Positions 1 through 3,988 of a stretch of 27,557 nucleotides of DNA are shown in pieces. The stretch's first letter is position 1. Each line of letters starts with the position of its first letter. Below the pieces are notes generated by a model that ran no database searches, was not told where the DNA came from, and was given only the letters and a program-made list of their open reading frames with translations. This DNA is from a virus: positions 1-27,557 of IMG/VR virus record IMGVR_UViG_3300021964_000413. The stretch is one strand, 5' to 3'. Both the position numbers and the translations under genes were made by a program.

Positions 1-102
1 TGGTAATGTCTTCATTGCAATCTCATAAGCTTCTTCTACTGTATTCGCTTCTACTTCTGACATTGCTGTTTCTAATTCAAAGAATATATTGTATTTGTTC
101 AT
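1..102 (-). CDS. Small phage protein, partial (3' end outside window)
   Basis: Only the first 34 codons are visible, starting with MNKYNIFFEL and reading leftward off the window edge. The start is supported by a strong Shine-Dalgarno (AAGGAG, minus strand) about 6 bases upstream. The visible part alternates a beta-strand-like stretch with an acidic segment (VEANTVEEAYEIAMKTL), the look of small beta-alpha phage proteins with a V-EA-S-EEA pattern, but no family can be named. It is the last visible gene of the leftward early operon and follows the 50-aa cysteine-rich gene by 11 bases. Function unknown. Confidence 0.6.
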   Translation of the reverse strand, partial: MNKYNIFFELETAMSEVEANTVEEAYEIAMKTLP

Positions 103-113
103 AGGTTTCTCCT

Positions 114-266
114 TTAATAACAAATTACTGCATCTTTACATACCTGGCAGATCTGTATTGATCCATCAGGTAAATAAACCGTTTTAGTCTCACATGCATA
201 TATCCAGTCACCGATAATGCATTGTGCTAGCATAAAACATGAAATAACTATCCATGCTTTAATCAT
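114..266 (-). CDS. Small cysteine-rich protein with N-terminal hydrophobic segment
   Basis: A 50-codon gene starting MIKAWIVISCFMLAQ. Residues 3-18 are hydrophobic and look like a signal peptide or membrane anchor. The remainder has cysteines at 25, 40, 43 and 49, including a CxxC pair, so the mature part could form disulfides in the periplasm. The residue before C16 is Q, so it is not a standard lipobox. Its ATG overlaps the stop of the upstream gene (ATGA type), implying coupled translation, and a GGAG-like element lies within that upstream gene. I do not recognise a family; a role at the envelope is inference from the hydrophobic N-terminus only. Confidence 0.5.
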   Translation of the reverse strand: MIKAWIVISCFMLAQCIIGDWIYACETKTVYLPDGSIQICQVCKDAVICY

Positions 267-568
267 CTTGCGCCTCCACTTCCTTCACTGGTTCGACGTA
301 AACGCTCACCCCGCATCTTCATCATGGCTACACGCTCACGAAATATATCTTTATCTAATCCAAGAATGTTCATGCATAATTCAAACATCTCATTATCATC
401 ATAGATAAAGTCCTCTGCACCTTTGACGAGTTCATTGGGTGATCGGTATCCAAGTAAATCATGTAGTGCATTTTCTAAAATACCGAGTACCAACTTGGCT
501 CGCCAATCATCTGTCGCATAACTTCTGCTGGATACGACTTCATGTAATGGGTCTACAGTAACGTCCAT
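263..568 (-). CDS. Conserved small phage protein (DDN..FELCMNILGLD motif), function unknown
   Basis: 101 aa, starting MDVTVDPLHEVV, with a good ribosome binding site (AGGAGTAAGGT) just upstream. Around residues 19-35 it has WRAKLVLGILENALHDL, and around 52-78 the pattern EDFIYDDNEMFELCMNILGLDKDIFRERV. This matches a pattern common in short phage proteins, in which a helix containing W-A-hhh-al-D is followed by a helical motif ending h-GLD---hR--h. I infer a small all-helical protein. The C-terminal 25 residues are arginine-rich and may be flexible or bind nucleic acid. It sits in the leftward early operon downstream of the ERF annealing gene. No biochemical function is known to me for this group. 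Confidence 0.65.
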   Translation of the reverse strand: MDVTVDPLHEVVSSRSYATDDWRAKLVLGILENALHDLLGYRSPNELVKGAEDFIYDDNEMFELCMNILGLDKDIFRERVAMMKMRGERLRRTSEGSGGAR

Positions 569-571
569 ACC

Positions 572-760
572 TTACTCCTGACTCACCTTGCGTAGGATGT
601 CACCGATCTCATTCTTAATCGCTAAGAATGTATCGGGACCCAATATGCTTAGTGCTTGTTTGTTGACTTCAAAGAACTCAGTAAGCTTCTTTGCTTTCAT
701 TTCTTTTGCAAGTTGACTGTTGCCAATTCTGTGTGACATATCAATCATCGTCTTCTTCAT
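572..760 (-). CDS. Likely C-terminal extension of ERF, read by -1 frameshift
   Basis: As a stand-alone ORF this is 62 aa starting MKKTMIDMSHRIG, helical and lysine-rich. Its ATG has no convincing Shine-Dalgarno: the nearest GAGG lies about 19 bases upstream. The same frame is open upstream without a stop to the slippery heptamer at 817-823, which overlaps the end of the ERF gene. Reading through from ERF by a -1 slip adds 19 codons (VLSLNLPGKDPIEVKDKDA) before this methionine. The combined product would be 224 aa, the normal size for ERF proteins, whose unshifted version here stops at 144 aa. I therefore think this is the ERF C-terminal domain rather than a separate gene. Independent initiation cannot be excluded. 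Confidence 0.55.
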   Translation of the reverse strand: MKKTMIDMSHRIGNSQLAKEMKAKKLTEFFEVNKQALSILGPDTFLAIKNEIGDILRKVSQE

Positions 761-777
761 GGCATCTTTGTCTTTGA

Positions 778-836
778 CCTCAATCGGATCCTTGCCGGGT
801 AGATTGAGGCTTAAGACTTTTTTATTTCAGTCACCT
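778..836 (-). promoter_or_regulatory. Candidate -1 programmed ribosomal frameshift signal in ERF mRNA
   Basis: On the minus strand, in order: an SD-like AGGTGA (831-836); the slippery heptamer A AAA AAG (817-823) phased as ATA AAA AAG in the ERF frame; a 7-base spacer TCTTAAG (810-816) that contains the ERF stop codon; and a stem CCTCAATC/GATTGAGG (802-809 with 778-785, 8 perfect pairs plus a possible closing G-U) with a 16-base loop. The heptamer, spacer length and stem match the architecture known from E. coli dnaX. The -1 frame is blocked by TGA just before the heptamer and open for 82 sense codons after it. Confidence 0.7.
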
Positions 837-1245
837 TTGCCGGTGGTAGTTTAGCTGCAATCGATTTACTTGCTGCGTTACCATCATCATCCTCAGCGGG
901 TAAACCACAAGCAGATAAAAGCGAGTATCTACGTGCATAAGTCAGGGCTGATCCATACTTCTGGGCGTCCTGTTGTGAAGGCACATATAATAAACCACCT
1001 GATATTTGCTCACCACTTGAATGCATAAATACAGTTTCAATCTTGACGCCATTGTCACACTCATGAGTCTTCTGTAATAATGCAATGTCATGGTTATGTA
1101 ATGCATCAATCACCGCATCATGTACCGATGCAAGATCAGCATATTTTGATTTAAAGAATGGGTTATCTGCTTTCTTTAACACTTGTCCAAACTCTTTTTG
1201 TGCTTCCACAAATGCCTTAGCAATCCCCAAAGTTTTCTCTGTCAT
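811..1245 (-). CDS. erf: ERF family single-strand annealing protein
   Basis: ERF proteins anneal complementary single strands during phage recombination and genome circularisation, usually beside an exonuclease, as here. Seen in the sequence: NPFFKSKYADLASV near residue 28, and QKYGSALTYARRYSLLSACGL followed by AEDDDGNAA around 95-125. These are the hallmark blocks of the family (Pfam ERF). I chose ATG 1245 because GGAG lies just upstream; the frame also extends to a TTG four codons earlier. The zero-frame product is 144 aa and ends shortly after the conserved domain (EIKKS then stop), lacking the usual C-terminal domain. A likely -1 frameshift site overlaps its end and would restore a 224-aa protein. 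The YqaJ-type exonuclease is encoded just upstream in the same operon. Confidence 0.9.
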   Translation of the reverse strand: MTEKTLGIAKAFVEAQKEFGQVLKKADNPFFKSKYADLASVHDAVIDALHNHDIALLQKTHECDNGVKIETVFMHSSGEQISGGLLYVPSQQDAQKYGSALTYARRYSLLSACGLPAEDDDGNAASKSIAAKLPPAKVTEIKKS

Positions 1246-1402
1246 AATTATCTCCAAAGTAAGTTAATATTAATTGATTACGTCTACGTTTATCCACGAT
1301 GCGACGTTTGATGATTGTTAGAAACATCTCATCATCTTTTTTATCTTGCTCATATTCCTCTTCACGTATTACCGTTTCATAGAGGTACTGTAAGTCATCC
1401 AT
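1217..1402 (-). CDS. Small acidic/basic hypothetical protein
   Basis: 61 aa starting MDDLQYLYETVIREEEYEQD, with an acidic first third and a basic centre (IIKRRIVDKRRRNQL). It probably forms helices. The ATG (1400-1402) overlaps the end of the exonuclease gene (ATGGATGA arrangement), and a GGGAG element lies about ten bases upstream, so translation is probably coupled. Its 3' end overlaps the start of the ERF gene by 29 bases. Position between the exonuclease and the annealing protein suggests an accessory role in recombination, but that is inference from location only. I recognise no family. Confidence 0.5.
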   Translation of the reverse strand: MDDLQYLYETVIREEEYEQDKKDDEMFLTIIKRRIVDKRRRNQLILTYFGDNYDRENFGDC

Positions 1403-2357
1403 TTCCAAGCTCCCTTATACGTAATTTAGATGCACGGATTGTTCGTGCGGGTTTAGCGGGTACCACTTTTTCAGGTGTTGCCTTGTAGTTGATCATGGTC
1501 CAAGTGACTTTATAATCGCCGGCTGTTGCATAAGCATGATCACGCATGTCCTTCATGATCTCGACTTCAAGTTCTTTTTGACGCTCTTCTAATTCATTAA
1601 TCATGTCTCTAATTTCTACAATCTTTTTAACATGATCAGCTTTATCAGATAGATCAATCTCAGTCTTTTCAGCTTCATCAAAGATAGATGCTGCTTCCCT
1701 TGTGTCCTGGATGTCATACCATTCCACTTCGTCATTGTTTTTATATTTATCTAAGCGACGTTGAAAGTCTTGAATTGCTTCGTGCATCCGGGCAATCACT
1801 TCCTCATCTCTTTGATATACAAAGACTTTTAGCGTGGTTCCTTTGTATAAAACACAAACGGCACCCCACTTTGCGCCATACGTATCCATCTGCATTTGCA
1901 GTTGAAGTACACCGCGATACAGTGGAAGTTCATTCGCTGATTCCACATCATGTGCAGTTAATTTGGCTTCGATGACGCCTTCACCTTCCAATGCGATTGA
2001 GTCTGCATTGACACAAATCACACCTTTGTTGATGTCCGTCATGATGTCTTTGCCATTCCCTTTTACTGTACCGTCCAAGCTACAGGCAAAAGGTAAGGTT
2101 TGATGTTGATAAGGTTTATCATGGTTTGTCTTTGGATTGCCAAGTCCAAGCCGCACCGCTGATTCATTCAGAATGGTTGCTTCTAATCGATTGCCCCAGT
2201 CCATTGATTCATTGGATTGGAATGGTGGTTCGATGCCGTTGATCACATCCATCTTTTGTTTAAGTAGTTCGTTGACCGTCATAAAGCGTGATGCACCCAT
2301 TAATACAGGCACTTCAGACGCTGATAGTTGGTCATTCGGTGTTAGTTTACCGACCAT
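1395..2357 (-). CDS. YqaJ-like viral recombinase / PD-(D/E)XK exonuclease
   Basis: 320 aa. Members of this family (YqaJ, related to lambda Exo) degrade one strand of duplex DNA to give single strands for an annealing protein. Visible motifs are SASEVPVLMGASRF near 12-25, the GNRLE box at 55-59, SLDG with D95, IEAK with E130 and K132 (the catalytic PD-(D/E)XK residues), and VLQLQMQMDTYG at 150-161. Residues about 245-290 form an acidic coiled coil that extends beyond the nuclease core. I chose the ATG at 2357 because AAAGGGA lies ideally upstream; an in-frame ATG five codons earlier has no such signal. It pairs functionally with the ERF gene downstream. Confidence 0.88.
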   Translation of the reverse strand: MVGKLTPNDQLSASEVPVLMGASRFMTVNELLKQKMDVINGIEPPFQSNESMDWGNRLEATILNESAVRLGLGNPKTNHDKPYQHQTLPFACSLDGTVKGNGKDIMTDINKGVICVNADSIALEGEGVIEAKLTAHDVESANELPLYRGVLQLQMQMDTYGAKWGAVCVLYKGTTLKVFVYQRDEEVIARMHEAIQDFQRRLDKYKNNDEVEWYDIQDTREAASIFDEAEKTEIDLSDKADHVKKIVEIRDMINELEERQKELEVEIMKDMRDHAYATAGDYKVTWTMINYKATPEKVVPAKPARTIRASKLRIRELGNG

Positions 2358-2520
2358 TGTGTTCCCTTTCATTTAGTAGTTCTAAGAAATCGTCAAGATC
2401 ATTGACCATTGAAAACCAATCATCCATTGATAGTTCACCACGTCGTTCTAATTCAAAGACGTAGTTAATCAATTGTCTGATTTTAGTTTTGAGTAGAGTT
2501 TTCTCTTGTTGAGTTGTCAT
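2347..2520 (-). CDS. Small acidic hypothetical protein
   Basis: 57 aa (MTTQQEKTLLKTKIRQLINY ...). A basic amphipathic first half is followed by an acidic second half (MDDWFSMVNDLDDFLELLNE), probably two helices. The start has an AAAGGT ribosome binding site inside the recurrent leader motif AACCATGAAAGGT that also precedes other minus-strand genes. It ends 11 bases inside the exonuclease gene and overlaps the membrane-protein ORF upstream by 38 bases. The strong ribosome site and neat end-to-start overlap with the exonuclease are the main evidence that it is real. Function unknown. Confidence 0.5.
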   Translation of the reverse strand: MTTQQEKTLLKTKIRQLINYVFELERRGELSMDDWFSMVNDLDDFLELLNEREHNGR

Positions 2521-2743
2521 TACTTTTACCTTTCATGGTTTCGTTAATACATTCTAATTTAGTCTTTAGATAGACTGTTGCACCAGGATCAATCTGTTTA
2601 AATGCTATTCCCTTTTGACAGATAATGCTGCGCTCCCTTTCATTATAAGATATCTTTAAATTAATTGCAAGATCGTATATCGATGCTCCTAAAAAAGCAC
2701 CTAAAATAACCAGACTAGCTTGTTTTATGTTCTGGACGACCAT
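2483..2743 (-). CDS. Small protein with N-terminal membrane segment
   Basis: 86 aa, starting MVVQNIKQASLVILGAFLGA. Residues about 9-27 are a hydrophobic, glycine/alanine-rich helix that could be a signal anchor. The rest is polar, with two cysteines (C42, C65) and a Ser/Asn/Thr-rich tail. AAAGGA lies 9-10 bases before the ATG. The gene overlaps a 44-aa gene at its start (29 bases) and a 57-aa gene at its end (38 bases). Such nested small genes are common in early phage operons. No family recognised; an inner-membrane or periplasmic role is inferred from the hydrophobic helix. Confidence 0.5.
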   Translation of the reverse strand: MVVQNIKQASLVILGAFLGASIYDLAINLKISYNERERSIICQKGIAFKQIDPGATVYLKTKLECINETMKGKSNDNSTRENSTQN

Positions 2744-2849
2744 CTTCTATTCCTTTCTGCAAAAAGTAGTTTTCAATGGCTAGATCATCCAACCAATCTT
2801 GACCATCCTCGAAACCACAAAAATCCGTGCGTTCCCTTTCCTGATTCAT
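2715..2849 (-). CDS. Small acidic hypothetical protein
   Basis: 44 aa (MNQERERTDFCGFEDGQDWL ...), acidic, with the patterns CGFEDGQDWLDDLAIENYF and KGIEDGRPEHKTS. The ribosome binding site GGAAAGGG lies just upstream of the ATG and is itself one half of a 21-base tandem duplication, the other half of which encodes residues Q3-R7. It overlaps the following gene by 29 bases. Coding status rests on the ribosome site and gene spacing; there is no recognisable family. Confidence 0.45.
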   Translation of the reverse strand: MNQERERTDFCGFEDGQDWLDDLAIENYFLQKGIEDGRPEHKTS

Positions 2850-2863
2850 GCGTTCCCTTTCCT
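2828..2863. repeat. 21-bp tandem duplication containing a ribosome binding site
   Basis: The 15-mer TGCGTTCCCTTTCCT occurs at 2828-2842 and again at 2849-2863. On the minus strand each copy reads AGGAAAGGGAACGCA. The upstream copy supplies the ribosome binding site of the 44-aa gene, and the second lies within its first codons. It is probably a recent slippage duplication. Confidence 0.7.
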
Positions 2864-3026
2864 AATATGGCAAAGTTAATACAAAATAAGATCCTAAACT
2901 TAGCATTGAGAACAAAATAAAGCCCCCTAATATGTCATATATGACAGTTTTACGCTTTCTTTTCCGTGCAATATCTTGTAATATTTCCGGGTTTATGTCA
3001 CTCAAGTATCTATCAAAGTTATTCAT
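2862..3026 (-). CDS. Small single-pass membrane protein
   Basis: 54 aa (MNNFDRYLSDINPEILQDIA ...). A short polar N-terminus leads to a strongly basic patch RKRKRK at 21-26, followed by a hydrophobic stretch from about 33 to 53 (ILGGFILFSMLSLGSYFVLT). By the positive-inside rule the N-terminus would face the cytoplasm. AGGGGG lies 4-9 bases before the ATG. Small membrane proteins of this size in early phage operons sometimes act in superinfection exclusion or host takeover; this one is not assignable. Holin function is unlikely from its early position but cannot be excluded. Confidence 0.5.
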   Translation of the reverse strand: MNNFDRYLSDINPEILQDIARKRKRKTVIYDILGGFILFSMLSLGSYFVLTLPY

Positions 3027-3039
3027 AATTAACCCCCTT

Positions 3040-3201
3040 TTATTTAAAATAAGTATTAATCATTACAGCCGCATTTTGCCTTGTCTTGTGCATTGCAAGT
3101 TGAATTGCTTCATTATGCGCAATTCCAGCCGCTTTATATTGGTTTAAATACTCATTAAATAAGTTTTTAATCACTTGTTTGTTTGCTTTTGTTAGTTTCA
3201 T
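3040..3201 (-). CDS. Small basic helical hypothetical protein
   Basis: 53 aa (MKLTKANKQVIKNLFNEYLN ...), lysine-rich and predicted helical, with AGIAHNEAIQLAMHKTRQNAAVM in the second half. The start has AAAGGT about 8 bases upstream within the recurrent leader motif shared with other genes of this operon. It lies between the Gp88-family gene and the small membrane protein gene, separated from Gp88 by an 79-base gap that contains a large hairpin. Not recognised. Confidence 0.5.
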   Translation of the reverse strand: MKLTKANKQVIKNLFNEYLNQYKAAGIAHNEAIQLAMHKTRQNAAVMINTYFK

Positions 3202-3239
3202 AATATGTACCTTTCAAAGTTTATAAAATGACTATCAAA

Positions 3240-3283
3240 TGATAATCCAGCAGCAGCCTATTTAAAGCCGCTGCTAGTTATCA
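3240..3283 (-). terminator. Hairpin after the Gp88 gene (terminator-like or RNA-processing stem)
   Basis: AGCAGCAGC (3249-3257) pairs with GCCGCTGCT (3267-3275), 9 pairs with one G-T in minus-strand RNA, around a 9-base loop. An outer helix TGATAA/TTATCA (3240-3245 with 3278-3283) extends it and overlaps the Gp88 stop codon. There is no U-tract on either side, so efficient intrinsic termination is doubtful; an mRNA-stabilising or processing structure fits equally well. Confidence 0.5.
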
Positions 3284-3988
3284 CTTACTTATAACAAACC
3301 CGCTTGTATCTTTTCGCGCCTTGCCCTTAGCATATAAGCCTAGAATAGCGTTTTTAGGGTTTAAGAATGTAAGATCATGTTTATCACCATCAAACACGCT
3401 GCGCTTGTGAAATGTAACGGGTATATTTTCGGGCTTGTCAAATACCGCGGCTATTCTTACACCGTTATCAATAGCCTTTTGATTGTACTTTTCAAAGCCT
3501 TTTTTACCACTATATGAGAATGTCAAATCATAGTTTGATGGTATATTCTTACGGTTTGGAATTTTAGTATAATCATAGAATTGCACGTCCGGGAATATAT
3601 CAAATATAGTCTGTAGCTTATTAAACCATTTAAACTGTATATTTTCCCATCGTATGTCACTGGTTCCGTTTAATCTTACAGCGGCTTTTAAACCTAGCTT
3701 TTTAGCTTTATAAGATAATGCGCCTATCTCATCAACTAATTGACGCATGAATTCATTTTGATCATTATTAAATAGTTTGGATCTATTCAGACGCGCGGCT
3801 TGTACATTTGAGAATGCGCCGCGTCCAGCTGTATATAAGCATCCATCAATACATCCCGCTAACTTTGCCATAGGGCAATAGTTAACACCTGATAGATCAA
3901 AAGGGGCAAGGTATAAAATACCGGTTAAATAGCCATATTGTGTGTTTTTGCTAGTCTTAGCGTTTGTATCTATTGATAAGAGTTTCAT
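3281..3988 (-). CDS. Gp88-family phage protein
   Basis: 235 aa. The N-terminal region (KTSKNTQYGYLTGILYLAPF, then SGVNYCPMAKLAGCIDGCLYTAG) with cysteines at 38, 46 and 50, and the following R-G-AFSNVQAARLNRSKLF block, match the widespread phage family named after mycobacteriophage gene product 88. The middle has VRLNGTSDIRWE, and the centre-to-end has FYDYTKIPNR and DLTFSYSGK, also typical of the family. The cysteine cluster suggests a metal or iron-sulfur site, which is inference. The biochemical role is unknown. It is the second gene of the leftward operon, after an intrinsic terminator, and its AAAGG ribosome site is within the shared leader motif AACCATGAAAGGT. Confidence 0.8.
   Translation of the reverse strand: MKLLSIDTNAKTSKNTQYGYLTGILYLAPFDLSGVNYCPMAKLAGCIDGCLYTAGRGAFSNVQAARLNRSKLFNNDQNEFMRQLVDEIGALSYKAKKLGLKAAVRLNGTSDIRWENIQFKWFNKLQTIFDIFPDVQFYDYTKIPNRKNIPSNYDLTFSYSGKKGFEKYNQKAIDNGVRIAAVFDKPENIPVTFHKRSVFDGDKHDLTFLNPKNAILGLYAKGKARKDTSGFVISK

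Follow-up and report, generated by a model that had tools for sequence, protein, structure and literature searches.

In dnaX, frameshifting at a slippery heptamer is stimulated by an SD-like element upstream of the heptamer and by a stem-loop downstream of it. In E. coli, this gene has an in-phase A_AAA_AAG with a prompt stop codon for the short form, and thus produces forms with and without a C-terminal domain, tau and gamma (PMC5009743). The long form of E. coli DnaX comes from normal reading and the short form from slippage. This polarity is reversible in some bacterial dnaX genes and can reverse when the frameshift efficiency is near 50% (PMC5009743). Phages are known to use frameshifting for adding a C-terminal extension to the tail chaperones G/GT and to the capsid proteins of T3/T7, A2, and PSA (PMC5009743). 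These are structural or assembly genes, whereas the ERF gene described here is a recombination gene.

The other system to be compared is lambda Red, in which the gene of the annealing protein Red-beta adjoins that of the exonuclease lambda Exo (the SynExo two-component layout). Red-beta consists of an annealing core and a small, mainly helical C-terminal domain (CTD). Recombination, though not annealing, depends on this domain, to which lambda Exo and SSB bind (PMC7496540, PMC9512822). It is an open question how the trimeric exonuclease and the many-subunit annealing ring reach a complex of 1:1 monomer stoichiometry (PMC9512822).

In the open-access literature, no paper on frameshifting in Erf, in annealing proteins, or in phage recombinases was found. 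As far as this literature shows, the mechanism proposed below is known from dnaX and the ERF gene is new to it. If the prediction is true, ERF would be, among recombination genes, the first case of dnaX-like frameshifting that could be located, and the trait would be widespread in aquatic phages.

The ERF locus

The window, meaning the whole analyzed stretch of 27,557 nucleotides (IMG/VR virus record IMGVR_UViG_3300021964_000413), has the following features in and around the ERF gene.

1395-2372, minus strand: YqaJ-like exonuclease gene upstream of ERF, its presumed partner (PF09588, 29.3 bits)
1252-1255, minus strand: SD sequence GGAG of the ERF gene, six bases 5′ of the ATG (read from the sequence)
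811-1245, minus strand: predicted ERF single-strand annealing protein, short form in the 0 frame, 144 aa (PF04404; PHROG 2324, Erf-like)
831-836, minus strand: SD-like AGGTGA, 7 nt 5′ of the heptamer (family-wide anti-SD pairing signal)
827-829, minus strand: TGA in the -1 frame, barring entry from the 5′ side of the heptamer (translation GD*NKKVLSLN)
817-823, minus strand: slippery heptamer A_AAA_AAG, encoding Lys-Lys in the ERF phase, X_XXY_YYZ (sequence and relatives)
811-813, minus strand: stop codon TAA of the 0 frame, one codon past the heptamer (read from the sequence)
572-817, minus strand: coding sequence of the CTD in the -1 frame, 81 codons and TAA (574-572), reading KK followed by VLSLNLPGKDPIEV and ending with SQE
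802-810, minus strand: 5′ arm of a stem-loop (from folding; perfect only in the window's subclade)
777-785, minus strand: 3′ arm of the stem-loop (from folding)

The ERF ORF (1245-811, minus strand; 144 aa and a stop) ends with the codons ATA AAA AAG TCT TAA. The first-pass annotation had predicted a programmed -1 frameshift at this place, and its account of the reading frames was reproduced: A_AAA_AAG is present in the ERF phase at 823-817, a TGA at 829-827 blocks the -1 frame, and the -1 frame is then open from the heptamer to the TAA at 574-572. The claimed product lengths, 224 aa (143 + 81) with the shift and 144 aa without it, were both confirmed. The short form had been said to end after the conserved domain, and it indeed corresponds to the ERF domain (PF04404, 82.5 bits against the Pfam cut-off of 25). 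Two details needed correction. AGGTGA is present at 836-831, but its spacing to the heptamer is 7 nt rather than 8, and the eight Watson-Crick pairs claimed for the stem are joined by one G-U pair (810-802 with 785-777). All three elements of the dnaX type are present in the window as claimed, but only the heptamer proved to be universal among the relatives.

AAAAAAG occurs 21 times on the two strands of the window, compared with 10.6 times in shuffles, and it is found in the slippery phase only once in the ORFs of at least 100 aa (7,812 codons), namely at the ERF site. With 21 copies in the window and a single one in this phase in these ORFs, the ERF heptamer exceeds chance. The sequence is thus commoner than in shuffles, yet it looks as if it were avoided in the slippery phase elsewhere in these ORFs. 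No DNA similarity to positions 1-3000 of the window was found in phage records.

It is very likely (a probability of about 0.93), judging from the sequences of the window and of its relatives, that the ERF gene undergoes programmed -1 ribosomal frameshifting like that of E. coli dnaX. During ERF translation, ribosomes would arrive at A_AAA_AAG, where the SD-like sequence upstream and, in the window's lineage, the stem-loop would favor slippage. Part of the ribosomes would re-pair as AAA AAA and go on in the -1 frame, producing the 224-aa protein with an additional domain of 80 residues (a beta-hairpin and three helices), and the non-slipping ribosomes would stop one codon later, producing the 144-aa annealing domain.

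Frames of the C-terminal domain in relatives

Is this arrangement common among related phages? An initial IMG/VR scan yielded 54 related loci, and later scans yielded several hundred. For the frame test, distinct ERF genes from IMG/VR, MAGs, and phages were scored for the frame of the CTD relative to ERF and for the presence or absence of an in-phase A_AAA_AAR before the CTD. The queries consisted of the CTD from two residues past the heptamer, and hence the loci were not selected by the heptamer. In all of the 55 distinct loci having an out-of-frame CTD, the CTD is read in the -1 frame, and an in-phase A_AAA_AAR precedes it; none of the 55 has it in the +1 frame or in the -1 frame without the heptamer. 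In 21 distinct relatives the CTD is fused to ERF in the 0 frame, with an in-phase heptamer (15 relatives) or without it (6 relatives). The first-pass annotation had named relatives with both frames fused in one ORF, or a conserved heptamer plus stem, as possible support. Fused relatives exist, and the heptamer is conserved, although the stem is lineage-specific. At the level of sequence comparison, its main point, a programmed -1 frameshift in the ERF gene, is thus supported by the relatives.

In all relatives of the frameshift type, the 0-frame stop codon lies 0-9 nt past the heptamer. Both scans with a DNA pattern of the cassette retrieved ERF loci exclusively (51 of 51 newly numbered loci). 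The fetched loci contain 2,465 distinct ORFs with a length of 80 aa or more. In these ORFs, 57 in-phase AAAAAAG sites lie within four codons of a stop, and for 56 of the 57 there is a -1 ORF of 60 codons or more; nearly all of them belong to the ERF-CTD cassette. The second Lys codon of the heptamer is AAG in the 46 representatives, except for AAA in one clade. The first Lys codon and its preceding base are invariant in these representatives, and third positions of two-fold invariant codons differ in ~31% of pairs, a comparison which is partly circular in that the representatives were picked by the heptamer, unlike the loci of the CTD-query frame test. All 44 representative loci whose sequence is long enough for this comparison have a YqaJ gene upstream.

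Homopolymers are error-prone and fused relatives do exist, as would be expected if a sequencing error or a pseudogene indel had split a single ERF gene. However, the split lies at the identical site in 55 distinct sequences, which were assembled independently from many metagenomes, and the coding sequence is conserved on either side of it; the cultured phage MEP301 has the split as well. The error that the first-pass annotation had considered is thereby excluded, and the chance of any such artifact is negligible.

MEP301, a cultured OM43 Methylophilales phage (MW452941, L056), has the YqaJ-ERF gene order, A_AAA_AAG, a stop codon one codon later, and a CTD of 83 codons in the -1 frame. Its record annotates only an ERF of 133 aa (QRV71434.1), and the CTD falls within an unannotated gap of 404 bases (3056-3459). 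The MEP301 genome paper mentions neither ERF nor a frameshift. Naive gene calling gives a truncated ERF and loses the CTD, even in a cultured phage. Judging from the pattern of gene conservation, which is very strong, short and long forms of an annealing protein appear to be produced by many phages of aquatic origin, of which one, a marine phage, is in culture and the others are uncultured; the ribosomes would slip back by one base at a fixed heptamer.

Salmonella phage SB28 (MK947460, L419), with its annotation "recombinase x2", was considered as a second case of a frameshifted ERF and was rejected; part of its ERF gene is actually duplicated in tandem (1192-2152), which is why two recombinases are listed in its record, and the duplication is perhaps an assembly error. 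In L077, the CTD is cut short at its end by a frameshift (DIKMQSVMS), for which a sequencing error or a decayed copy is the probable reason.

Coding in the -1 frame from the heptamer onward

In the 48 nt that separate the heptamer from the earliest start codon that is commonly present, the pN/pS value over sequence pairs was 0.41 for the -1 frame, and 1.52 and 1.74 for the other two frames. By this measure, purifying selection acts on the -1 frame in this interval. In the relatives, a motif SLxLPGKDPIEV starts directly after the two lysines, and protein-level conservation covers ~20 codons at the beginning of the CTD, ahead of the usual starts.

These results bear on the possibility that there are two genes and that the CTD is made alone, via re-initiation at an internal start past the ERF stop codon. 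The ORF at 572-760 of the window has an ATG with the ERF stop near it, and many relatives have an ATG at +63, +75, or +84 from the heptamer. However, neither re-initiation nor a gene of its own for the CTD explains the data, because coding in the -1 frame begins at the heptamer, ~20 conserved codons before the usual starts, and because in MEP301, L030, and L037 the stretch of ~130 nt past the heptamer is free of in-frame ATG and GTG codons. The joining of the fused homologues at the heptamer and the -1 frame with heptamer in 55 of 55 loci also argue against re-initiation, which is extremely unlikely.

Stimulatory elements

Over the family, the pairing energy with the anti-SD sequence at the 3′ end of 16S rRNA peaks for 9-mers starting 18 nt 5′ of the heptamer (-18 to -10; mean -3.5). 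In the band from -20 to -15, the mean of the minima is -4.13, as compared with -2.98 ± 0.29 in synonymous-codon shuffles, none of 200 being as low. Thus, the upstream SD-like signal is supported by the sequences in aggregate over the family.

Slippage during transcription on the A-run, as in the dnaX gene of Thermus, would yield the same two products from mRNAs with altered numbers of A. The site is an A-run, of seven A residues in L038-L042, but in nearly all loci it consists of six A residues and then a G, and it never comes near the nine residues of the runs used in Thermus dnaX (PMC5009743). Moreover, slippage of this type needs neither the constant codon phase of the heptamer nor the SD-like signal, both of which are present. 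It is very unlikely, and ribosomal frameshifting remains the preferred reading.

The stem-loop region of the window has a folding energy of -16.6 kcal/mol (z = -2.68 against synonymous-codon shuffles). Its 9-bp stem is perfect in the window's own subclade, with z values from -2.3 to -3.9 in nearly all members, and is partial in the next subclade. An alternative 5-bp hairpin, GCCTG/CAGGC, which shares the 5′ bases, is perfect in ~14 representatives of other branches including fused ones, and four representatives have a G-C to C-G change in it. Several subclades have neither the 9-bp stem nor the 5-bp hairpin. A stem conserved throughout the family is not claimed here, since formal covariation is weak for either hairpin. 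Depending on the subclade, the stem differs or is missing. As far as the compared sequences go, the stem-loop is lineage-specific, a difference from dnaX, and the heptamer alone is universal.

Fused relatives and polarity swaps

Natural fusions of ERF and CTD join at the same Lys-Lys as encoded by the heptamer. L023/L024, L031, L109/L111/L131, L142, and L185-L196 have the CTD in the 0 frame and retain GTA/GCA AAA AAG. The -1 frame of these fused types meets a stop codon after four codons in L023, two in L109, and three in L142 and L185; L031 is an exception, with a -1 frame running 17 codons to the stop. Since the heptamer is retained together with a prompt -1 stop, normal reading of the fused genes would give the long form and slippage would give the short form. 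This is the polarity of E. coli dnaX, and the layout of the window is the reverse. ERF thus differs from dnaX not only in being an unrelated gene, for a phage annealing protein, but also in that most members would obtain the long form by shifting.

The two layouts can be close relatives; the ERF parts of L112 (shift type) and L109 (fused type) are 89% identical. On a tree of the ERF domain, based on 118 columns, five layout changes are needed and at least four are forced by well-supported branches, although core-CTD recombination could mimic some of them. Read from this tree, the polarity swap happened at least four times, and the ERF family is an evolutionary record of frameshift polarity flipping several times. 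Such repeated swaps suggest a high slippage efficiency. Because swaps would be nearly neutral near 50%, the ribosomes probably slip at a substantial efficiency. A caution is that, in a gene fused not long ago, the heptamer could be a relic.

It is also conceivable that the frameshift is real but merely expresses the full-length protein or lowers its amount, with the short form having no function. The six fused homologues without the heptamer get by on one form, and thus some phages manage without the short form. However, most of the fused relatives retain the heptamer with a -1 stop codon close behind it and would thereby regain the short form, and a shift conserved across very diverse CTDs would be an odd route to one protein. 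A functionless short form is thus unlikely, but it deserves more weight than the other alternatives. At codon 132 of the ERF gene of L164, an in-phase A_AAA_AAA lies in the linker before an unrelated C-terminal part, and the -1 frame stops after 26 codons.

A second, probable annealing core with the same cassette

I found that L085 and L087-L091 have the heptamer, the stop codon, and the -1 CTD as in the ERF loci L014/L015/L084, behind a different core of 148 aa. This second core matches PHROG 11717, a PHROG without function, and its closest homologue in phage records is annotated as an mgM101-like protein. The loci also have a YqaJ gene. From the mgM101-like annotation, the CTD, and the YqaJ neighbor, the second core is probably a Sak3/Mgm101-like annealing protein. 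Most of its relatives have other C-terminal parts and lack the heptamer. Since the cassette is shared by ERF and the second core, whose relatives are mostly without the heptamer, it appears from the sequences that the cassette has moved between cores.

Structure and possible role of the C-terminal domain

An AlphaFold2 model of the CTD consists of a beta-hairpin and three helices (pLDDT 81.6). Searches of Pfam, PHROGs, and PDB with the CTD gave nothing meaningful, and there was no significant match in PDB, including the solved CTD of Red-beta. The best named of the weak matches in BFVD were SAK3 (E 0.011, TM 0.89 on the query) and Bet (E 0.22, TM 0.72); weak matches to coronavirus spike proteins were dismissed as coiled-coil noise. 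In the AlphaFold2 model of the fused protein of L109, the ERF core is followed by a low-confidence linker holding the heptamer lysines and by the CTD. The core of this model matches the Gp77 structure 9y6u (E 5.5e-6), and Mgm101 weakly.

As the CTD has no family or PDB match, its role is proposed here by analogy with Red-beta. The ERF system resembles lambda Red in that the annealing-protein gene adjoins an exonuclease gene and that the annealing core is followed by a small, mainly helical CTD. It differs in that the core is not Bet, the exonuclease is YqaJ, the CTD does not match that of Red-beta in PDB, and two forms would come from one gene by the predicted frameshift. By this analogy, the CTD may recruit the YqaJ exonuclease and/or SSB. 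The two forms may co-assemble into mixed rings with a limited number of CTDs, the ratio of the forms setting the number per ring.

A more speculative proposal, which I regard as possible but on balance doubtful, is that the slippery site, the stop codon, and the CTD constitute a portable cassette, used with two cores, that fixes a near-equal ratio of subunits with and without the CTD in phage annealing rings. The frame of the long form could then be swapped without a change in this ratio, and a many-subunit ring would show only a few docking sites for the exonuclease or SSB. Two types of subunits, with and without a docking domain, would be a natural answer to the stoichiometry question of lambda Red.

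Another site was noticed upstream of the YqaJ gene in L112 and L144. An 81-aa ORF ending with LKKGV has an in-phase AAAAAAG, from which the -1 frame leads into YqaJ (325 codons). Either another shift site or a simple overlap of two genes could account for this.
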